The notes under the pieces were generated by a model. That model saw only the letters and a program-made list of their open reading frames with translations. It did no database searches and was not told the origin of the DNA. Shown here in pieces: positions 8,325-19,912 of a stretch of 64,000 bases of DNA (within the stretch, counting starts at the first letter, position 1; each line of letters begins with the position of its first letter). The translations under genes were made by a program, and so were the position numbers. This DNA is from Halosolutus amylolyticus. GTDB taxonomy: Archaea > Halobacteriota > Halobacteria > Halobacteriales > Natrialbaceae. The DNA lies in contig NZ_JALIQP010000003.1 of assembly GCF_023566055.1 (NCBI RefSeq), positions 186,001-250,000 on the forward strand, in the 5' to 3' direction.

Positions 8325-10550
8325 TCAGCGGAGCCGCGACCGCGGATCGAGCACCTCGATCGGGTGGACCGCGTCCCGATCGAGCAGGTCTCCTAACTGC
8401 TCCTCGCAGGAGGTGCCGCTGGCGACGACCAGCCGATCCTCGGCTCGGGGATCGGTGAACTGCTCGGCGAGTCGCTCGCCGACGTCCATGCTGAGTTCGT
8501 AGTACTCGCGCTTGTAGCCGAAGCTCCCGGCCATCCCACAGCACTCGACGTCGCTCTCGACGACGTCGTAGACGAGGTCGTCGAAGACGGCGGTCGTGTA
8601 GCGATCGAGCCCCAGCGTGCGCTGCTGGCAGTGGGCGTGGTAGGCGATCGGCGGGCCCTCCCCGCCGTCACGGAGTTCGGTGGGATCGCCCCCGTTCTCG
8701 AGCAGTCCGTAGACGTACTCGAGGATCTCGTAGCTACCGTCCCGGAGTCGCTCGAACGATCGCTCGGGCAAGAGGTTCTCGTACTCGCGGCGGAACATCG
8801 CGAGGTCGCTGGGTTCGATCACGACGACGTCCCGGCCAGCGTCGATGTGTTCGGCGAGCGCGGCGTAGACGCGACTCGCCTGCTCGTCGGCGGTGGCGAT
8901 CAGGCCCTGCGAAAGCGGCGCACGCCCGCTCTCGCCGACGTCGGGGATGCGGACGTGAACGTCGAGCGCCTCGAGGACCCGGACGGCCGCCTTGCCCCGA
9001 TCGACGTCGACGTAGTTCGTGTACGTGTCGGGGTAGAGGACGACCTCGCGATCCGCGTCGATCGGGTCGACCCGCGACCCCCGTTTCTCGTACCACTCGC
9101 GAAGCGTCTCGCGCTGGAACTCGGGAAGGTCCCGACGGCTATCGACGCCGACGACGCGCTCCAGCAGGCTCCTGACCGGGCCGAGACCGGCCATCCAGTT
9201 CGAGAGCGGCGCGGTCGCGCTCCCGAGTTTCGCCAGCGTCTCGTAGTTCCCGAACAGTCGCTTCTGGGGGTCGAGGCCGCCCGGTTCCTCGTCGGGGACC
9301 AGTTCCTCGTAGACGAACTCGAACTGCCCGTCGTCGCCCTCGCGGTTGATCCGATCGCGGACGACCGTGTTGAGCCACGGGATGTCGATCTTCACGGGGC
9401 AGGCGTTCACACAGCGGGTGCAGCCGGTACAGAGGTCGTTGAACTCGGCCGCCGACTCCTGCCCGTGGACGCCCGCTTCCCACCCGGTCGCGATGCCGCC
9501 GGTGTAGGTCTCGCCGCCGAAGGCGTGGCCGCCGACGCTCTGGAAGTTCGCACACGAGTTCGCACACGCCGAACAGCGGATGCAGTACAGCGTCTCGCGA
9601 AGCTGCTCGTCATCGCGCATCGCCATGCGCCCGTTGTCGATCAACACGAGGTGGAAGTCCCGATCGTCGTTCCGGTCCGCGAACGCGACGTCCGGTTCGT
9701 CGAAGTCGACGACCGGAGACTCGACCGGCGGCGTCAGCAACGAAATGTAGGAGGTGATGTCCTGGCCGGTTCCGGATCGGCCGATCAGTTCGATGAACGG
9801 CGCGAGATCCTCGACGGAGGGAACGATCTTCTCGACGCCGGCGACGGCGACGTGCGTGTCCGGGACGACGGCGGACTTCCGGGCGTTCCCCTCGCTCGTG
9901 ACCAGCATGATCGAACCCGAATCGGCCGTGATGAAGTTCGCGCCGGTCATCCCGACGTCCGCGTCACGGATCAGTTCGCCCAGCCGCTCGCGGGCGAACA
10001 TCGTCAGCTCCTCGGCGGTCTCGAGCGGTTCTTCGGGATCGAACTGCTCGTTGAACAGCTGGGCGATCTCGTCCTCGGACTTGTGGATCGCCGGCGCGAC
10101 GATGTGCGACGGCGCCTCGTCGGCGACCTGCAGGACCCACTCGCCGAGGTCGGTCTCGACGACGTCGACGCCGTCTTCCGCGAGCGCGTCGTTGACCTCG
10201 AGTTCCTCGCTGGTCATCGACTTCGACTTGACGACCCGCCCGGCGTCCTTCTCGCTCGCGACGTCGCGGATGTAGCGATTCGCGTCGGCCGCGTCGTCGG
10301 CGAGGTAGACGGTCCCGCCGTTTTCCTCGACGGTCTCGGTGACCTCGTCGATCAGTTCCGGGAGGCGCTCGATCGCGTCCTCCTTGATCGCCCGCGCCTC
10401 GTCTTTCAGGGCCTCGTAATCCTCGAGGTCCGCGACCGACTCGTACCGTCCCTGGTTGAACCCGAGCGTGTTCGCCTCGACGGCCTCGCCCTCGGTCTCG
10501 AGGAGGTGACGGATCCGGTCGGCTTTCGCCCCGCGATCGGTCTCACTCAT
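8325..10550 (-). CDS. LUD-domain iron-sulfur protein fused to a CCG (LutA-like) domain, lactate utilisation
   Basis: 741 residues. The N-terminal two fifths is a LUD domain (TGANFITADSGSIMLVTSEG). A ferredoxin-like part has two cysteine clusters (CIRCSACANSCANF and CTGCTRCVNACPVKIDIP), which would hold two [4Fe-4S] clusters. The C-terminal part is heterodisulfide-reductase-like with HAHCQQRTLG and ECCGMAGSFGYKREY. This fuses the roles of LutB (LldF) and LutA (LldE), subunits of the three-part bacterial L-lactate dehydrogenase. It overlaps the end of the upstream lutC-like gene by 8 bases. The ATG at 10550 was chosen over a GTG at 10559. Electron acceptor and exact substrate are inferred. Confidence 0.88.
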   Translation of the reverse strand: MSETDRGAKADRIRHLLETEGEAVEANTLGFNQGRYESVADLEDYEALKDEARAIKEDAIERLPELIDEVTETVEENGGTVYLADDAADANRYIRDVASEKDAGRVVKSKSMTSEELEVNDALAEDGVDVVETDLGEWVLQVADEAPSHIVAPAIHKSEDEIAQLFNEQFDPEEPLETAEELTMFARERLGELIRDADVGMTGANFITADSGSIMLVTSEGNARKSAVVPDTHVAVAGVEKIVPSVEDLAPFIELIGRSGTGQDITSYISLLTPPVESPVVDFDEPDVAFADRNDDRDFHLVLIDNGRMAMRDDEQLRETLYCIRCSACANSCANFQSVGGHAFGGETYTGGIATGWEAGVHGQESAAEFNDLCTGCTRCVNACPVKIDIPWLNTVVRDRINREGDDGQFEFVYEELVPDEEPGGLDPQKRLFGNYETLAKLGSATAPLSNWMAGLGPVRSLLERVVGVDSRRDLPEFQRETLREWYEKRGSRVDPIDADREVVLYPDTYTNYVDVDRGKAAVRVLEALDVHVRIPDVGESGRAPLSQGLIATADEQASRVYAALAEHIDAGRDVVVIEPSDLAMFRREYENLLPERSFERLRDGSYEILEYVYGLLENGGDPTELRDGGEGPPIAYHAHCQQRTLGLDRYTTAVFDDLVYDVVESDVECCGMAGSFGYKREYYELSMDVGERLAEQFTDPRAEDRLVVASGTSCEEQLGDLLDRDAVHPIEVLDPRSRLR

Positions 10551-11070
10551 CGGACTCACCCCGCGTCTCGAGGACGACGACGTGGACGTCTTTCGGCCCG
10601 TGCGCTCCCTTCACGAGCGCGCCCATGTCGGCGGTCGCGCTCGGTCCCGTCGCGACGATGGCGCTCCCGCCGTCGCGCAGGTCCGGCCCTAGGCGAGCGA
10701 TCGCCGTCGACATGTCCGCGACGACGTCCTCGGCCCGGACGATCGGGACGTGAAGGTCGGGAAAGAGACTCACCTGCTCCGATCCGGCCGCCGTTGCCGG
10801 GAGGACGACGCTCCCGTAGTCGGCGATCCCGATCGAGGCGGCCGTGATACCGGTTACCGCCGAATCGAGGCTCGCGGGCGTCGGGTCGTCGTCCACCCAG
10901 TCCGGAAGCGAGACCGACGGGAACGGGAGGGACGTTCCGATCGCTGGCTCGCGGGCGATAGTCTCAAGCGTACGATCGAACCCGGCTGGATCGGTGTACG
11001 TGACCGGCACGTCGAGGTCCGCGAGCGCGGCTTCGAACCGCTCCGGCGCGGACCCTGGGTCGACACTCAT
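10543..11070 (-). CDS. lutC: LutC-like LUD domain protein
   Basis: 175 residues, a stand-alone LUD domain with the family stretches ADYGSVVLPATAAGSEQVS and GPSATADMGALVKGAHGPKD. LutC (LldG) is the third component of the LutABC lactate oxidase. It is first in a two-gene operon with the fused LUD/Fe-S/CCG gene, whose start lies inside its last codons. A TATA-like aaatag about 22-25 bases before the ATG fits a leaderless transcript. It is divergent to the first lactate permease across a 600-base regulatory interval. Confidence 0.85.
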   Translation of the reverse strand: MSVDPGSAPERFEAALADLDVPVTYTDPAGFDRTLETIAREPAIGTSLPFPSVSLPDWVDDDPTPASLDSAVTGITAASIGIADYGSVVLPATAAGSEQVSLFPDLHVPIVRAEDVVADMSTAIARLGPDLRDGGSAIVATGPSATADMGALVKGAHGPKDVHVVVLETRGESDE

Positions 11071-11352: not shown

Positions 11353-11431
11353 AAAAAGAGTCGCTTCGTTTCCGGTCGCGCCTCAAGTCGAGAGTCGCCA
11401 GCAGTATCCCGTCGCCCCATTCGACGTAGCT

Positions 11432-11453
11432 ACCGCGAAAAATCGCGGTAGGT
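11432..11453. promoter_or_regulatory. Perfect 9-bp inverted repeat with AAAA loop
   Basis: ctaccgcga - aaaa - tcgcggtag. It could be an operator or an RNA hairpin. It lies roughly midway in the divergent interval, not directly behind any gene, so a terminator role is unlikely. Confidence 0.4.
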
Positions 11454-11640
11454 GGCCACGACAGTTGTCTATACAGGACGATCGCTCCCGATCAAGGCGT
11501 CCGTCTTACGTGCCGGATTCGCCCCGATCGTGGTTCCGTCTAGCATATACTCAATCTTTCCTCAGAGTACTAAATGAAAATTACACCTGCAGGGCGAGAA
11601 CAGCGGACTTGATCGGCCGACGACCTCAAACGGTCGAAGG

Positions 11641-11650
11641 TTATATATAC
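11641..11650 (+). promoter_or_regulatory. TATA box of the first lactate-permease transcript
   Basis: ttatatatac is a strong archaeal TATA element. The expected start point (25-27 bases downstream) coincides with the ATG at 11672 of a 28-residue mini-ORF rather than with the permease ATG at 11751. Confidence 0.7.
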
Positions 11651-11671
11651 TGGTTTAACTGTCCTGAACCC

Positions 11672-11758
11672 ATGCCAGATCCGATTCCACACGGCATCGA
11701 TACCGATCGTCCACTGCTAGCTCCGAAGACGGGCACAGGGGATGAGCTGAATGGTTAG
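11672..11758 (+). CDS. Leaderless 28-residue mini-ORF ending on the lctP start codon
   Basis: The ATG sits at the predicted transcription start and the frame reads [20 protein letters not shown] then GTGDELNG. Its TAG (11756-11758) lies inside the first codons of lctP (atggttag), giving an 8-base overlap. It has no Shine-Dalgarno sequence, which suits leaderless initiation. The likely role is a leader peptide that delivers ribosomes to lctP by termination-reinitiation. Sequence resembles no family I know. The second permease has an equivalent mini-ORF at 14818-14880. Confidence 0.5.
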
Positions 11759-13487
11759 TACGGTCGAACTACTGCTCGCGGCCACGCCGCTCGTGCTCGC
11801 CGGGGTTTTGCTCGTGGGACTGCTGTGGCCCGCGACGCGGGCGATGCCGGTCGCCTACGTCGTGGCGGTGCTGGTCGGCTGGGCCGTCTGGGATATGCCG
11901 GGAGCGTACCTCTTTGCAGCCTCCACGAAGGGGGTGTTGACGGCGATCCAGATCCTCTGGATCGTCTTCGGCGCGTTGCTTCTGCTGTACACGCTGATGC
12001 AGGCCGGCGCGTTCGACCGTATCAACCGCGGTTTCGCGACGATCAGCGACGATCGGCGGGTACAGATCATCCTCCTCGGCTTCTTCCTCGCGGCGTTCAT
12101 CGAGGGCGCGGCCGGCTTCGGGACGCCCGCCGCCGTCGTCGCGCCGCTCCTGCTGGCGCTCGGATTCCCGGCGCTCGCCGCAGTGATTGCCGGACTGATC
12201 GGTCACGTCCTCGCCGTCACCTACGGCGCGGTCGGGACGCCGATCATCATCGGGATCGAGAACCCGCTCGGCTCGACCGAGACCACGAGCACAGCGATCA
12301 CTGACGCCGGGTTCACGGTACAGGAGTATTCGCTCGAGGTCGCTATCTGGGCGGCGACCTACCACACGCTGGTCGGCTTCGTCATGCCGCTGTTCGCGGT
12401 CGGCATGGTCGTCTACTTCTTCGGCGACACGGACGAGCGCAGCCTCGAGCCCGCGTGGGAAGTCGCCCCGCTGTGCCTGTTTTCGGGCATCGCGTTCGTC
12501 GTCCCCTACTGGCTCTCGGCGCAGATCAGCGCCGAGTTCCCCAGCCTGATGGGCGCGATGGTCGGCGGTGCGATCGTCGTCGGTGCGCTGAAGGCCGGCT
12601 ACTTCGTCCCGGACGAGGAGTGGGACTTCCCGGACCGCGAGGAGTGGCCGGCCCACTGGGTCGGGACGATCGAACCCGGCGAGGCCAGTGCACCCGGTAC
12701 GGGCAGCAGTACGGGCGATGCGACCGTCGCCGACGGCGGCGTCGGCACGTCGGACATCTCGCTGCTCCGCGCCTGGACGCCGTACATTTTGCTGGTCGTC
12801 TTGCTCGTCGTCACTCGCGTCGTCGAGCCGCTCCCCACCGTCCTGCAACGGTTCGGCACGGAGTGGGGTGATATTCTCGGGACGGGTATCAGCGGCGGCG
12901 TCGACTGGCTGTACGTCCCCGGCTTCTGGCTGGTGCTCTGTGCACTGGTCGCGATTCCGCTGTACCGGATGACTGGGAATCAGGTCAAAGCCGCCTGGAC
13001 GGAGACGCTCCAGAAGCTCATCTCGCCGCTGATCGCGCTCGTGTTCGTCATCGCGATGGTGCAGGTGATGCTCCAGTCCGGCGCACACGCCGCGGGGACC
13101 GACAGCATGATCTTCGTGCTCGCCGAGGCGACCGCTAACGTCGCCGGACCGGCGTATCCGTTCATCGCCGCCCTCATCGGCGCTCTCGGCGCGGCGATGG
13201 CCGGCTCGAACACGGTGTCGAACATTACGTTCGGCGGGTTCCAGTTCGAGGCCGCCTCACAGCTCGGCCTGCCGACCCAGCTCATCGTCGGCGCACAGGC
13301 CGTCGGCGGCGCGATCGGGAACCTCGTGGCGATCCACAACGTCGTCGCCGCGCTGGCGACCGTCGGCCTCGTCGGGGAGGAGGGGCGCGTGATGCGGCTG
13401 AACCTGATCCCGCTCATCTACTACGCCCTCGGCGTCGGTATCGTCGTGACGGTGTTCAGTTACGTCCTCTTCCCTGGCTTCTTCTAG
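11751..13487 (+). CDS. lctP: L-lactate permease (LctP/LldP family)
   Basis: 578 residues with about a dozen or more hydrophobic helices. Family signatures are the N-terminal [38 protein letters not shown], and [14 protein letters not shown] near the C-terminus. These proton-coupled carriers import lactate and glycolate. A Gly/Ser/Thr-rich loop (about residues 305-335) is the least conserved part. The ATG at 11751 gives [15 protein letters not shown], aligned with the start of the paralogue at 14873. The gene lies in the lactate locus, divergent to lutC. An 89-nt segment (13281-13369) is identical to the paralogue. Confidence 0.92.
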
Positions 13488-13544
13488 AAGTCCGGGTCCG
13501 TTACGGCCACGACTACCATGATTCTCCTCACTGTTCCGTGAACG

Positions 13545-13817
13545 ATGACACGAACGACGATCGAACGGCAGTACGACGACGATACACCGGCCAGCGTCGC
13601 CATCGTCGACGGGATCAGTACGCTCGAGGGAACCGACGGGGCCGCGACGACGGACGAACTCGGCTTTCGGCTCTACGACTACGTCGATCCCGAGGCGCTC
13701 GATACGATCGTGGCGGAGGGCTCCGGTGCCGGCGACGTCGTCGTCTCGTTCCGGGTCGAAGCGTATCACGTGACGGTAACGAACGCGGGGCGCATCCGCA
13801 TCCGATTCCGCGAGTAG
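13545..13817 (+). CDS. HalOD1 domain protein
   Basis: 90 residues with the typical order of a HalOD1 output-domain protein: an early VAIVDGISTLEG, then DELGFRLYDYVDPEALDTIV and a terminal beta pair (VVVSFRVEAYHVTVTNAGRI). HalOD1 is a small haloarchaeal domain, predicted to have a signalling role, of unknown biochemical activity. It lies 57 bases behind lctP on the same strand and may share its transcript. Confidence 0.8.
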   Translation: MTRTTIERQYDDDTPASVAIVDGISTLEGTDGAATTDELGFRLYDYVDPEALDTIVAEGSGAGDVVVSFRVEAYHVTVTNAGRIRIRFRE

Positions 13818-13920
13818 CGATCGAGACCGCCCGGAAGACCGGTCGCCGCGGTGCGGTCACGGCGGTCGTCGATCGGCCTTCGACGCGGTTCCCGTCCCAC
13901 CGAGGCACCCGGCCGCGTCC

Positions 13921-14520
13921 TCAGCCGAGCGTCGGCGTGAACCGATCGCTTCCGAGGAAGTTCCAGATGTGGCCCCGTTCTTCCGGCGGATCGACGCCAG
14001 GCAACTCCTTCAGCGCGGGCTGGATCGCGTTCCACCAGCCCTCGGCGGTTTCGAACTCCGCGGGGTGATCGGGATACACGTTCTCGAGGAAGTCCGACTT
14101 CCGTGCGCTGGGATGGTCGATGAGGAACTCGTACGACGCGAGCAGCGCCTCGCGCCGGGCCTCGAGCGTCGCTCCCGTCCCGGGGAGATCGATCGTCTCC
14201 ATCGCCTCCTGGACCGCCCGTGGTGGCGCCTCCGCCCCGGTTCGATCGGTCGCCGGCTGCGGTTCGGATGACGCCTCCATCGGAACCCACCAGACCCGTC
14301 CGCGAGCGCCGATCTTGCGGGTCCTGAGCGCTCCGTCTTCGACGAGTTCGGTGAGTTTGTTGTGTGCCGTTCGGCGCGAACAGTCGAGCGTCTCCATCAC
14401 GTCGTCGGCAGTCAACGGGCGGCCGAGATCGTCGCGGTCGTCGAAGGCCTCGAGGGCGGTCTCCGCCGGGATCCGATCCGCATACTGTCCGTGACTGTTT
14501 CGTTCACGGTCGTTGCTCAT
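13921..14520 (-). CDS. Winged-helix transcriptional regulator between the two lactate permeases
   Basis: 199 residues. The N-terminal domain holds a winged HTH (LTADDVMETLDCSRRTAHNK, then LTELVEDGALRTRKIGARGR with VWWVP as the wing end), preceded by PAETALEAFDDRDDLGRPL. The rest contains RKSDFLENVYPDHPAEFETA, of unknown function and possibly a sensing region. The ATG at 14520 was chosen because a TATA-like tgcatatgcc lies about 27 bases 5'. Its position between lctP1 and lctP2 makes it the best candidate for the lactate regulator (inference). It is convergent with the HalOD1 gene. Confidence 0.75.
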   Translation of the reverse strand: MSNDRERNSHGQYADRIPAETALEAFDDRDDLGRPLTADDVMETLDCSRRTAHNKLTELVEDGALRTRKIGARGRVWWVPMEASSEPQPATDRTGAEAPPRAVQEAMETIDLPGTGATLEARREALLASYEFLIDHPSARKSDFLENVYPDHPAEFETAEGWWNAIQPALKELPGVDPPEERGHIWNFLGSDRFTPTLG

Positions 14521-14782
14521 GGATCGGCCCAGAGTACACAACTGCATATGCCTTTACATTCGAGTGAAACAGCACAGGAGACCGATCGAAACCGGATCTC
14601 GTGGCGGTTCCGATCGACGGCTCTTCCGGGCTGGTTCGCGTGACATCCAGCCGCCGGGATGTGTCGGTCACGCCACCGTCAGCTGGCGGGAACGTGGGTG
14701 TGATGGCCGAAAACAGCGGTTCCCGACCGTCGAACCGGAGCGAGCGAAAATCCGGGCCGACGATCGTGAACGGTCCGCTACC

Positions 14783-14789
14783 TATAAAT
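14783..14789 (+). promoter_or_regulatory. TATA box of the second lactate-permease transcript
   Basis: tataaat, with an expected start at about 14811, 5-7 bases before the ATG at 14818 of a mini-ORF. The permease itself begins only at 14873. Confidence 0.6.
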
Positions 14790-14817
14790 CAGAGATCTAC
14801 CCAGGGTATCGCGTGAC

Positions 14818-14880
14818 ATGATCGAGCCGCGGCACGACTCGTGGACCGGTCCGGGGGCCGGGGGTGACAGCGATGGTTGA
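14818..14880 (+). CDS. 20-residue mini-ORF ending on the second lctP start codon
   Basis: It reads MIEPRHDSWTGPGAGGDSDG and stops at TGA 14878-14880, inside atggttga of the permease start (ATG at 14873). The arrangement is the same as at 11672-11758: predicted transcription start at the mini-ORF, 8-base overlap with the permease start. The peptide sequences differ, so position rather than product appears conserved. Likely a translational leader. Confidence 0.5.
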   Translation: MIEPRHDSWTGPGAGGDSDG

Positions 14881-16654
14881 TGCGGTCGGCGTCGCCTTCG
14901 CAGCCGTCCCGCTGGTCGTCGTCAGCGTCCTGCTCGTCGGTCTCCTCTGGCCCGCGACGCGGGCGATGCCGATCGCGTGGCTCTCGGCGCTCGCCGTCGG
15001 CTTTTTCGTCTGGGAGATGCCGATCACGTGGCTGGCCGCGGCGACGATCGAGGGGGTCATCACCGCGATCCAGATCCTCTTCATCGTCTTCGGCGCGCTC
15101 GTGTTGCTGTACACGATGCTTCGAGCGGGGGCGTTCGACGTCCTCAACGGTGGATTCGCGACGATCAGCGAGGATCGTCGCGTGCAGGTCGTGTTGATCG
15201 CGTTTTTCCTCTCGACGTTCGTCGAGGGCGCAGCCGGATTCGGGTCCCCCGCCGCCGTCGTCGCGCCCCTGTTGCTCGGACTCGGTTTTCCCGCGCTGGC
15301 CGCCGTCGTCGCTGCGTTGATCGGCCACATCATCGCGGTCACGTACGGCGCGGTCGGGACGCCGATCATCGTCGGCATCCGGGAACCGGTGGCGAGCGTC
15401 TCCAGCATCCGATCGGCCATCGAAGCCGAGGGGCTGACCGCGACCGAGTTCGCGGTCAACGTGGCCGCGTGGGCGGCGACCTATCACCTGCTCGTCGGCT
15501 TCGTGATGCCCCTGTTCGTGGTTGGCATGGTCGTCTACTTCTTCGACGAACCCGGGAACCGATCGATCAGGCCGGCCCTCGAGGTGTGGCCCCTCTGCCT
15601 GTTCGCAGGGTTCGCGTTCGTGATTCCCTACTGGCTGTCGGCGTGGTTCATCAGCGCCGAATTCCCGGCGCTGGTCGGATCGATGGTCGGGGCGGCGATC
15701 ACGATCGCCGCACTCCGCGAGGGGTACTTCCTGCCGGAGGAGGAGTGGACGTTCCCGGAGCAGGAGGAGTGGCCGGACCACTGGGTCGGCTCGATTCAGC
15801 CCTCCGAGGCCAGGAGCGTGCTGGCCGGGAGCCACGACATCTCGCTCCTGCGGGCGTGGTCGCCGTACCTGCTGTTGCTCGGGCTCCTGATCTGTACCCG
15901 CGTCTTCGATCCGCTCCCCGGATTGCTCCAGGGCGAACCGGTACAACTGTTCAGCGCCCGGATTTCGCTCACGCTCGGGACGATCACGACGGGAGTCGGG
16001 GAGTTCACGGTCGGCCTGTTCCGCTTCGAGTGGGCGAACATTCTCGGGACCGAACTCGGCAACGGCATCGACTTCACCTACGTCCCCGGGACCTGGTTGC
16101 TGGTCAGTGCGATCGCGGCGATCGGGCTCTTCGATATGGACCGGACGCAGGTGCGGGAGGCCTGGCTCGGCGCGACGGCGAAACTGGTTTCGCCCCTGAT
16201 CGCGCTCGTGTTCGTGCTCGCGATGGCCCACGTGATGCTCCAGTCGGGATCCCACGCCGACGGCGTCGACAGCATGATCGTCGTCCTGGGAACCGCGACG
16301 GCGAACCTGTTCGGCCCGGCCTACCCGCTAGTCGCCGCACTCATCGGTGCGCTGGGGGCCGCACTGGTCGGCTCGAACACGGTCAGTAATCTCACCTTCG
16401 GACCGTTCCAGTTCGTCGCGGCCCAGCGACTCGGCCTGTCCCACGAACTCATCGTCGGCGCACAGGCCGTCGGCGGCGCGATCGGGAACCTCGTGGCGAT
16501 CCACAACGTCGTCGCCGCGCTGGCGACCGTCGGCCTGATCGGAGAGGAAGGACGCGTGATCCGCCTCAATCTCGTTCCGCTCGTGTACTATACGGTCTTC
16601 GTCGGCGTCTGGGCACTGCTGTTTACGTACGTGTTCTTCCCGGAGGTGTTCTGA
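14873..16654 (+). CDS. lctP: L-lactate permease paralogue (LctP/LldP family)
   Basis: 593 residues, clearly paralogous to the permease at 11751 over its whole length ([52 protein letters not shown]). It has a longer loop around residues 340-385 (QLFSARISLTLGTITTGVGE). The ATG at 14873 was preferred to a GTG at 14864 because it aligns with lctP1 and with the overlap to the mini-ORF. The D-lactate dehydrogenase follows 111 bases downstream on the same strand, so this copy may serve D-lactate or glycolate uptake (inference). A gacccc-gac-ag-tcgggtc hairpin lies in the gap behind it. Confidence 0.92.
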   Translation: MVDAVGVAFAAVPLVVVSVLLVGLLWPATRAMPIAWLSALAVGFFVWEMPITWLAAATIEGVITAIQILFIVFGALVLLYTMLRAGAFDVLNGGFATISEDRRVQVVLIAFFLSTFVEGAAGFGSPAAVVAPLLLGLGFPALAAVVAALIGHIIAVTYGAVGTPIIVGIREPVASVSSIRSAIEAEGLTATEFAVNVAAWAATYHLLVGFVMPLFVVGMVVYFFDEPGNRSIRPALEVWPLCLFAGFAFVIPYWLSAWFISAEFPALVGSMVGAAITIAALREGYFLPEEEWTFPEQEEWPDHWVGSIQPSEARSVLAGSHDISLLRAWSPYLLLLGLLICTRVFDPLPGLLQGEPVQLFSARISLTLGTITTGVGEFTVGLFRFEWANILGTELGNGIDFTYVPGTWLLVSAIAAIGLFDMDRTQVREAWLGATAKLVSPLIALVFVLAMAHVMLQSGSHADGVDSMIVVLGTATANLFGPAYPLVAALIGALGAALVGSNTVSNLTFGPFQFVAAQRLGLSHELIVGAQAVGGAIGNLVAIHNVVAALATVGLIGEEGRVIRLNLVPLVYYTVFVGVWALLFTYVFFPEVF

Positions 16655-16765: not shown

Positions 16766-19700
16766 ATGGCTAGCAATCCCACGGATTCACGAGACCGCCG
16801 ATCGACTGTATCGGACCCTGCGGCCGATCCGCAGGCGAACTACGACTACCGGAACGACGACGTCGAGCGGCCGACGCTGGTCGCCGACCTCGAGGACCGC
16901 ATCGCGGGCGACGTTCGTGCCGACTCGTACTCGAGACAGCTGTACGCGACCGACGCGAGTCTCTACGAGGTGACACCGATCGCCGTCGTCTTCCCGCAGT
17001 CGACCGCCGACGTCGCCGCAGTCGTCTCCTACTGCGCCGACAGGGAGATTCCGGTGTTGCCCCGCGGCGGCGGAACGAGCCTCGCGGGCCAGACGGTCAA
17101 CGAAGCCGTGGTCCTCGACTTCACGACGCAGATGGACGACGTCGTATCGATCGATCCCGACGAGCGGCGTGCGACCGCCCAGTCGGGGATCTACCTCGAG
17201 ACGCTCAACGAGGCACTCGCCCCCCACGACCTGAAATTCGCACCGGATCCCGCCTGGGGCGACAAGAGCGCGCTCGGCGGGGCGATCGGCAACAACTCGA
17301 CGGGCGCACACTCGCTCCAGTACGGCAAGACCGACGCCTACGTCGAGGAGGTCGAGGCCGTCCTCGCGGACGGCACAGTGACGACGTTCGGCGAGGTCGA
17401 CGTCGATGACCTCCCCGACCTCGCCGACGGCGAGGACCTCGAGTCGGCAATCTACGCCGAAGTGGCCCGTATCCTCGACGAACGGGGCGACCTGATCGAG
17501 GAGATCTATCCCGATCTCAAGCGCAACGTGTCGGGGTACAATCTCGACTGGCTGGTCAGCGAGGCGCGAAGCGCCTCGACGGACGCGAACGGCGATGCCG
17601 TGAGCGAAGACGCCCGCGGCACCGACCGCGGGATCGGCGAACCCGACGCCGACGGCGGGACGATCAACCTCGCGAAACTCCTCTGTGGCAGCGAGGGGAC
17701 CCTCGCGATCGTCACCGAGGCGACGGTCTCGCTCGAACCCGTCCCCGAAACGAAGAGCATGGCCCTGCTCGCGTACGACACGGTGCTCGACGCGATGGCT
17801 GACGTCGAGGCGATCGTCGAGCACGACCCGGCCGCGGTGGAGGTGCTCGACGACGTGATGATCGACCTCGCGCGCGATACGCCCGAGTTCGGCCCGGTCA
17901 CTGAGATGCTGCCCGCGGGAACGACCGCGGTCCTGATCGTCGAGTTCTACGCCGACGACGTCGCCGACGGCAAGCGAAACGTCGCGAACCTGCTGGCCGA
18001 TCGCTGTCCATCGGTCGATCCAGACGGGGTCGCCGACGACGCGGCCGAGCGGACGGTCACCGACGCGGACGTCCTCGCGTTCGACGCGATCGAGGCCTAC
18101 GACGAGGCGAGTCGCGCGAAGATCTGGAAACTCCGCAAGTCCGGCCTGCCGATCCTGCTCTCGCGGACGACCGACGAGAAACACGTCGCGTTCATCGAGG
18201 ACACCGGGATTCCGCCCGAGAACCTCCGGGCGTTCGTCGCGGACTTCCAGTCGGTCCTGGAGGATCACGACACTTATGCGAGTTTCTACGCCCACGCCGG
18301 ACCCGGCGTGCTCCACATCCGACCGCTCGTGAACACGAAGTCGGAGGCGGGCCTCGAGACCATGGCGTCGATCGCCGACGACGTGACCGATCTCGTGGTC
18401 GAGTACGACGGCTCCATCTCGGGCGAGCACGGCGACGGGCGGGCCCGAACCCAGTGGAATCGCAAACTCTACGGCGAGGACCTGTGGGAGACGTTCCAGG
18501 ACCTGAAGAGCGCGTTCGATCCGGACTGGGTGCTCAACCCCGGCCAGGTCGTCTTCCGCGACGAGAACCCGACGGACATGACCGAGAATCACCGGTTCGG
18601 TCCCGACTACGAGTTCGACGCCGGGTTCGACCCGGTCCTCGAGTGGGAGACCGATCAGGGGTTTCAGGGAATGGCGGAACTCTGCCACGGCTGTGGCGGC
18701 TGTCGCGGCGAGCAGTCCACGACCGGCGGCGTGATGTGTCCCACGTTCCGCGCGAGCCACGAGGAGATCCTCTCGACGCGCGGGCGAGCGAACATGCTCC
18801 GGCAGGCGATGAGCGGGGACCTCGATCCCGAGGCGCAGTTCGACGACGAGTTCGTCGAAGAAGTGCTCGACCTCTGTATCGGCTGCAAGGGTTGCAAACA
18901 CGATTGCCCGAGCGGCGTCGACATGGCGAAGCTGAAAGCCGAGATCGTCCACGAACACCACCAGCGAAACGGGATTTCGCTTCGCGATCGCGTCTTCGCG
19001 AACTTCGAGACGCTCGCGAAACTCGGGAGCGCGACCGCACCCGTCTCGAACTGGATGACGGCCCTCCCCGGGACCGGCCTCCTCGCGGAGACGGTGCTCG
19101 GCATCTCCCGGGAGCGGGACCTCCCGACGTTCGAGCGTCGCACCTTCGCGAAGCGGGTCGCCGATCGCGACCCCGCCGTGCCGGCGGCCGAGGCGACCCG
19201 CCGCGCCGTGCTGGTGCCGGACGTCTACACCAATCACGAGTATCCCGAGGCGGGTGAGGCGGCGCTGGCCGTGCTCGAAGCCGCCGGCGTTCACGTCGAG
19301 GTCGCGACGCCGCGGGACGTCGGCCGGCCGGCGTTCTCGAAGGGGATGCTCGACCTGGCGGCCGAGAAGGCGCGCGGCACCGTCGACGGTCTCGAACCGC
19401 TGGTCGAGGACGGCTGGGACGTGCTCCTGCTCGAACCCTCCGACGCGGTCATGCTCCAGTCGGACTACCGCGATCTCCTCGCGGGAAGCGACGTCGATCG
19501 GGTCGCCGAAAACACGTACGGCGTCTGCGAGTACCTCGATCGATTCGATCTCGACGCCGATCTCGCGTTCGACGCGCCGGACGACCACCTCGTCTACCAC
19601 GGCCACTGCCACCAGAAGGCCCACGCGAAAGACCACCACGCCGTCGGCGTCCTTCGCCGCGCGGGCTACGCGGTCGATCCGCTCGACTCGAGTTGCTGTG

Positions 19701-19912
19701 GCATGGCGGGCAGTTTCGGCTACGAGGCCGAGCACTACTCCATGAGCAAGGCGATCGGTGAGGTCCTCTACGACCAGGTCGACGACAGCGAGGGCGATCG
19801 GGTCGTCGCTCCCGGCGCTTCCTGTCGGACCCAGCTCGGCGATCGACCCGGGGCGGACGACGAGCCGCCGACGCCGATCGAGGTCGTCGCCGAGGCGCTC
19901 GATCGATCCTGA
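16766..19912 (+). CDS. FAD/Fe-S D-lactate dehydrogenase (or glycolate oxidase), three-part fusion
   Basis: 1048 residues. Order: FAD_binding_4 domain (PVLPRGGGTSLAGQTVNEAV near residue 95), FAD-oxidase C-terminal domain (SISGEHGDGRARTQWNRKLY near 555), an Fe-S part with CHGCGGCRGEQSTTGGVMCP and CIGCKGCKHDCPSGVDM, and a CCG domain with HGHCHQKAHAKDHHAVG and SCCGMAGSFGYEAEHYSMSK. This is the GlpC/Dld fusion type that oxidises D-2-hydroxyacids and passes electrons to quinone or an Fe-S carrier. About 32 residues of low-complexity acidic sequence (around residues 267-297) interrupt the FAD domain. It is the last gene of the lactate region. Confidence 0.9.
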   Translation: MASNPTDSRDRRSTVSDPAADPQANYDYRNDDVERPTLVADLEDRIAGDVRADSYSRQLYATDASLYEVTPIAVVFPQSTADVAAVVSYCADREIPVLPRGGGTSLAGQTVNEAVVLDFTTQMDDVVSIDPDERRATAQSGIYLETLNEALAPHDLKFAPDPAWGDKSALGGAIGNNSTGAHSLQYGKTDAYVEEVEAVLADGTVTTFGEVDVDDLPDLADGEDLESAIYAEVARILDERGDLIEEIYPDLKRNVSGYNLDWLVSEARSASTDANGDAVSEDARGTDRGIGEPDADGGTINLAKLLCGSEGTLAIVTEATVSLEPVPETKSMALLAYDTVLDAMADVEAIVEHDPAAVEVLDDVMIDLARDTPEFGPVTEMLPAGTTAVLIVEFYADDVADGKRNVANLLADRCPSVDPDGVADDAAERTVTDADVLAFDAIEAYDEASRAKIWKLRKSGLPILLSRTTDEKHVAFIEDTGIPPENLRAFVADFQSVLEDHDTYASFYAHAGPGVLHIRPLVNTKSEAGLETMASIADDVTDLVVEYDGSISGEHGDGRARTQWNRKLYGEDLWETFQDLKSAFDPDWVLNPGQVVFRDENPTDMTENHRFGPDYEFDAGFDPVLEWETDQGFQGMAELCHGCGGCRGEQSTTGGVMCPTFRASHEEILSTRGRANMLRQAMSGDLDPEAQFDDEFVEEVLDLCIGCKGCKHDCPSGVDMAKLKAEIVHEHHQRNGISLRDRVFANFETLAKLGSATAPVSNWMTALPGTGLLAETVLGISRERDLPTFERRTFAKRVADRDPAVPAAEATRRAVLVPDVYTNHEYPEAGEAALAVLEAAGVHVEVATPRDVGRPAFSKGMLDLAAEKARGTVDGLEPLVEDGWDVLLLEPSDAVMLQSDYRDLLAGSDVDRVAENTYGVCEYLDRFDLDADLAFDAPDDHLVYHGHCHQKAHAKDHHAVGVLRRAGYAVDPLDSSCCGMAGSFGYEAEHYSMSKAIGEVLYDQVDDSEGDRVVAPGASCRTQLGDRPGADDEPPTPIEVVAEALDRS

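Follow-up and report, generated by a model that had tools for sequence, protein, structure and literature searches.

Short leader frames ending on the lactate permease start codon across Halobacteria are probable fore-cistrons for translational reinitiation

Each of the two L-lactate permease (lctP) genes in the 64,000-nucleotide stretch of Halosolutus amylolyticus DNA analysed here (the window) is preceded by a short open reading frame whose stop codon overlaps the permease start codon, which raises the question of whether this arrangement is a chance product of a GC-rich leader or is itself under selection, and for what. At the second copy, a TATA box (TATAAAT, positions 14783-14789, + strand) begins 35 nt 5' of the ATG at 14818 that opens a leader mini-ORF, or fore-cistron (14818-14880, +; 20 codons plus TGA at 14878-14880; kept in relatives), with the translation MIEPRHDSWTGPGAGGDSDG. 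The mini-ORF and the permease share an 8-nt stop-start overlap, ATGGTTGA (14873-14880, +), and a Shine-Dalgarno (SD)-like GGGGTGA lies inside the 3' end of the mini-ORF (14861-14867, +). The permease itself (LctP, second copy, 593 aa, 14873-16654, +) matched PF02652 (Lactate_perm; E = 5.2e-100) and scored 315.9 bits against NCBIfam TIGR00795, under the cut-off of 341.15; an in-frame GTG at 14864 is also present in its frame, and the alignment of relatives favours ATG 14873. An earlier note on this DNA had placed the TATA box, ATG, 20 codons, TGA and overlap exactly to the base, and its coordinates for the same layout at the first copy were likewise right. The usual archaeal TATA-to-start distance gives a predicted transcription start for the second lctP at about 14810-14816, and the 14818 mini-ORF is probably leaderless or has a leader of a few nucleotides. 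Between the TATA box and the mini-ORF start, a ATCTNCCCATGG-like element (14793-14806 and the aligned leaders) is kept in relatives of the 14818 leader; at 14793-14806 the window reads CCCAGGG, without the ATG found in most of these relatives.

At the first copy, the TATA box (11641-11649, +; conserved in the alignment of 24 loci) begins about 30 nt 5' of ATG 11672, a spacing from which the 11672 mini-ORF is predicted to be leaderless. This frame (11672-11758, +; 28 codons plus TAG at 11756-11758; 24 loci with an identical 79-nt spacing) ends in the 8-nt overlap ATGGTTAG (11751-11758, +) with a 578-aa LctP (11751-13487, +; PF02652, E = 5.7e-98). An inverted repeat, ATGCCA-N14-CGGCAT (11672-11697, +), spans the mini-ORF start and is the single match to ATGCCA-N14-YGGCAT across the whole 4.6-Mb genome; it is putatively an operator or a 5'-end hairpin holding the mini-ORF AUG. 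In the 24 equal-spacing loci the TATA box, ATG, palindrome, GAGGTGA 5' of the permease start and stop are all conserved. The two mini-ORF peptides of the window have no evident shared sequence, as the earlier note had said. Its argument that two occurrences make chance less likely held in its conclusion and not in its premise: the two permeases are tandem paralogs (66% identical) and not independent origins, and independence therefore rests on the wider survey described below. Both lctP genes lie among lactate-oxidation genes, namely those for an LldF/LdhH-like protein (8325-10559, -), a LUD-domain protein (10543-11070, -) and an FAD/Fe-S oxidoreductase (16766-19912, +). Lying between the two permeases and oriented divergently from the second, the gene at 13921-14547 (-) gave a weak, sub-cut-off match to Pfam HTH_20 and is a candidate regulator; HTH genes are also found before lctP in Halobellus limi and near lctP in Haloarcula.

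A survey of upstream regions in Halobacteria, as the earlier note had suggested, covered 151 lctP starts from eight families (f1, f3, f4, f6-f10), picked blind to their leaders and sampled among the matches listed, with 60 taken from outside the family alongside automatic loci. These came from 156 distinct loci, after 36 duplicates and two loci with <140 nt of upstream DNA (L076, L042) were dropped; the other five loci had no ATG or GTG near the aligned start, and N-terminal matches in G003, G007, G008, G015, G047:C19, G063, G098:C16 and G122 were left out of the sample. A leader was scored as framed if an ATG located at -130 to -34 relative to the permease start opened a frame 12 or more codons long, with the first base of its stop at -8 to +13. 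With ATG alone, 140 of the 151 starts were framed, against 34.3 expected from dinucleotide shuffles of the 140 nt upstream of the permease with the permease kept intact; allowing GTG raised the number to 144, GTG frames being present in four of the 11 starts without an ATG frame. When each leader cluster was represented by a single locus, 56 of 62 were framed (13.2 expected). Among annotated genes on three haloarchaeal plasmids (Haloterrigena turkmenica, Haloarcula marismortui and Halobellus limi), frames occurred in 12 of 93, and in 7 of the 68 whose free upstream DNA spanned 100 nt or more, where the incomplete plasmid gene table means that "free" DNA may contain genes; the lctP on each of the same plasmids was framed. 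Bacterial lctP genes with a usable start were framed in 3 of 64 cases. A chance ORF in a GC-rich leader was ruled out by the shuffles and controls together.

In an extra set, the frame was present in all four loci of the main subfamily (L267, L270, L273 and L279, two of them only via a chosen GTG permease start), in 4 of 10 loci of a sister haloarchaeal LctP subfamily (three from one genus, ending ATGA) and in one of five loci from non-halophile archaea (L251 being judged with TTG starts); a further halophile paralog, L276, had no such frame. In the sister-subfamily genus, L257, L260 and L261 have a 15-codon frame from -44 that ends ATGA, and their peptides differ. The arrangement thus distributed looks haloarchaeal, and held deepest in the LctP subfamily to which both window genes belong. 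One further lctP copy (G072:C2:779263-780928) lies in three pieces with an internal stop and is apparently a broken paralog beside another copy.

What is kept within this arrangement can be read from close relatives whose frames have shifted. An indel of 8 nt shifts the frame among relatives of the 14818 leader, and stops fall at +5 in the window, L008 and L009 (ATGGTTGA, ATGGGTGA), at +1 in L013 (ATGA), at -2 in L010 and L012 (TGATG) and at +10 in L011. In leaders of the 11672 type, the palindrome starts mostly at -79 (21 loci; -92 in two, -80 in one and -70 in one); the palindrome-anchored shifts of +13 and +1 change the frame, and both give a stop at -2 instead of +5. One locus (L063) has the usual spacing and a stop at +14, just beyond the range scored. 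Relative to the permease, the mini-ORF occupies the two out-of-frame registers in 86 and 59 loci and is in frame in four. The earlier note had held that out-of-register frames in close relatives would count against its proposal; such frames do occur, yet the stop still falls on the permease start, and register shifts with the stop re-formed there support selection on the arrangement. Together with the framed orthologs, this bears out its proposal that the arrangement, and not the peptide, is selected: what selection seems to maintain is the endpoint of the frame and not the encoded content. Control of carrier synthesis, the purpose that the note had given for this selection, is a putative one. 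The same registers bear on the idea that the permease really begins with the mini-ORF as its N-terminus, joined by a programmed frameshift or split off by a sequencing error, for which one could cite the long open frame reaching up to the start and a minor frameshift product reported for ppe2. Both out-of-frame registers occur, the peptide is unconserved and no slippery site common to the leaders was seen, and a layout repeated in eight families excludes sequencing error; we rejected a frameshift or N-terminal extension on the registers, and regard this reading as the least credible of those considered.

Stops of framed lctP loci peak at +5 (50 loci), +1 (33), +4 (18) and -2 (15), corresponding to overlaps of 8, 4, 7 and 1 nt. 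The 8-base overlap that the earlier note had seen in both window genes is one of several solutions. The ATGA class alone carries little weight, ATGA being common at haloarchaeal starts anyway (a +1 stop, in any frame or none, in 44 of 91 control genes); the +5 and +4 stops do count, being present at 55 and 21 of 151 lctP starts against 2 and 0 of 91 controls. A GCT second codon, the source of the TAG in ATGGCTAG, was dropped as support, as GCT also accounts for four of six control Ala codons. Matches of at least 5 nt to GGAGGTGATC, which we take to be the SD string, precede 39 of 62 lctP starts and 11 of 91 control genes. The leaders thereby combine the two features by which haloarchaeal termination-reinitiation pairs are recognized, namely stop-start proximity (at most ~10 nt) and an SD motif before the downstream start. 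The SD-like motif in 39 of 62 leaders would also suit a permease initiated independently from the SD, with the mini-ORF irrelevant or untranslated, but this leaves the kept frame and stop (140/151) and the compensated frame changes unexplained, and in H. volcanii the SD is reported not to function in de novo initiation (Kramer 2014, relayed in a review); we consider independent initiation quite improbable. An Rfam scan of 11400-15400 found no known RNA family, and folding of six leaders gave z-scores of -1.20 to +1.53, indicating no structure beyond composition; RNA structure masking the permease start accordingly gained no support from either and was set aside.

DNA signals could in principle produce such a frame as a by-product, with the TATA box, an operator palindrome and the SD embedded in GC-rich, stop-poor sequence, and the clade-level residues MPDxIPHGI of the 11672 group do coincide with the palindrome ATGCCA-N14-TGGCA. 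The exact palindrome, however, is present in only 21 of 151 leaders, against the frame in 140, which rules it out as sole cause, and shuffled leaders of equal composition yield a frame in 23% of cases; a by-product origin is accordingly very unlikely in our judgement, a little more so than independent initiation.

Promoter spacing is consistent with leaderless initiation on the mini-ORF. Across the 56 representatives, the best TATA lies 26 to 44 nt from the uORF ATG in 36 (mode 31), a figure biased upward by taking the ATG nearest to a 29-nt spacing; it lies >44 nt from the nearest uORF ATG in 16, and <26 nt from it or downstream of it in four. The distance from TATA to permease is broad in the same representatives. 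When the ORF was left out of the selection and the first ATG 24 to 45 nt past the best TATA and >20 nt before the permease was taken, 30 of 38 such frames stopped at -8 to +13; among controls, four genes qualified and one stopped in this range. By this TATA scan, which is a crude one, a leaderless start does not appear to be universal.

Constraint on the encoded peptide was slight. Over 101 pairs in 13 clusters, the mini-ORF frame had a pN/pS of 0.86, compared with 0.97 and 0.71 for the other two frames and 0.18 for permease codons 6 to 35, and codon-position entropy in the mid-frame was nearly equal at the three positions (24 equal-spacing loci). Leader ORFs range from 13 to 42 codons; residues recur within clades (SWTG in the 14818 group, as well as MPDxIPHGI in the 11672 group), and none are common to the mini-ORF peptides of different clades. 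We rejected a conserved peptide on the pN/pS values and codon-position entropy, and the mini-ORF peptide appears nearly unconstrained. The conserved peptide or regulatory codons that mark an attenuator or sensing leader were not found in these leaders; the mycobacterial pattern, in which the linkage is kept while the peptide is not, was. A functional small peptide, acting as a regulator or as a stalling or sensing leader peptide, could draw on the within-clade residues and on the L180 cluster (12 loci, 36 pairs), whose mini-ORF pN/pS of 0.51 is below that of the other clusters with many pairs and whose leaders may be under some constraint on peptide or codons. Against it stand the pooled pN/pS near wrong-frame values, the lack of mid-frame codon-position bias, the absence of a PHROGs match for the 14818 peptide and a net charge that is positive in 35 of 56 peptides, unlike the low isoelectric points given for H. 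volcanii uORF peptides in the parts of that report used here. We hold this reading to be improbable, if marginally less so than independent initiation.

The best explanation, to which we give a probability of roughly three in four, is that the mini-ORF serves as a leaderless fore-cistron, bringing ribosomes to lctP through termination-reinitiation. The lctP message would start at, or a few nucleotides before, the leader-ORF ATG. Leaderless initiation is the main mode in haloarchaea, and a ribosome would initiate in this way on the leader ORF of 13 to 42 codons, translate it and terminate at the stop overlapping the permease start codon, where the SD-like GGAGGTGA at the end of the leader ORF would aid reinitiation on the permease. 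The peptide would be a by-product, with selection retaining the start codon at the transcript end, the open frame and the stop on the permease start; the benefit might be that a hydrophobic carrier gets a steady initiation route, or that its synthesis is braked. As an alternative in its own right, such a brake would have most ribosomes terminate and leave, inefficient reinitiation keeping permease levels low. The anatomy would be the same, and a uORF is reported to suppress metE in M. tuberculosis, but the SD-like element at the junction and the strongly coupling overlap classes point to efficient reinitiation, and we think a brake doubtful, if the least so of the rivals. A bolder and rather speculative reading is that in Halobacteria the carrier is made only via leaderless loading and then reinitiation, a regulated gate tying its synthesis to the translational state (for example, through the availability of recycling or initiation factors, or an operator protein on the mini-ORF start) and kept class-wide while the peptide drifted.

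The proposed mechanism is already known from haloarchaeal gene pairs and, in mycobacteria, from leaderless small ORFs coupled to a downstream gene. For nine overlapping pairs of H. volcanii, downstream translation was abolished once a premature stop was placed in the upstream ORF (Huber 2019, PMC6728339). Haloarchaeal pairs most often have distances of -4, -1 and -8, with a preference for overlaps of 4, 1 and 8 nt; coupling is abolished at a distance of about 22 nt, and it needs no more of the upstream gene than its last 15 nt (Huber 2023, PMC10666635). The lctP leaders resemble the pairs described in the consulted parts of these two reports in their stop-start overlap, its 4-, 1- and 8-nt sizes, the SD at the junction and the out-of-frame register. 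They differ in that those pairs are annotated genes, often for complex subunits, whereas the upstream cistron of lctP is unannotated, has 13 to 42 codons and no conserved product, and precedes the genes of one transporter family. Short ORFs with ribosome delivery as their sole role have been discussed in a review, and in the lctP leaders the question of whether some frames have no other purpose could be tested cleanly on natural material.

Mycobacterial leaderless small ORFs likewise have an RTG at the transcript start and are coupled to the gene that follows; a figure legend states that leaderless start and linkage are conserved in them, unlike the peptide sequence (Shell 2015, PMC4633059). 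The portions of that report used here concern bacteria and a single ortholog example, whereas the lctP leaders are archaeal and class-wide and concern one gene family, with several registers and compensated frame changes; among the titles and abstract openings of the open-licence papers searched, we found no class-wide, gene-specific archaeal case. The stop-start overlap is also shared with uPPE2-PPE2 of M. tuberculosis, whose downstream gene depends on translation of the uORF; that AUGA-coupled pair is described in the sections consulted as leadered and under a B12 riboswitch (PMC11260477), whereas the two lctP leaders of the window are without an Rfam match. Haloarchaeal uORFs of 15 to 31 aa have been reported in 16 of 97 very long H. 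volcanii leaders (Babski 2016, PMC4983044); unlike the lctP leaders, these lie in 150- to 250-nt leaders and encode acidic peptides; the sections of that report drawn on here mention no stop-start coupling, and the word permease is absent from its text. What the lctP leaders add is a stop position, and not a peptide, kept class-wide for one gene family, in coding frames that are absent from the annotation of the three haloarchaeal plasmids examined. A related design is the leaderless bicistronic arrangement of C. glutamicum, in which a leaderless fore-cistron with an SD drives the second cistron (PMC10367133, in the part of the report consulted); that is a synthetic construct, of which the lctP leaders would be the natural archaeal counterpart, providing a ready natural collection of such bicistronic leaders for gene expression in haloarchaea.
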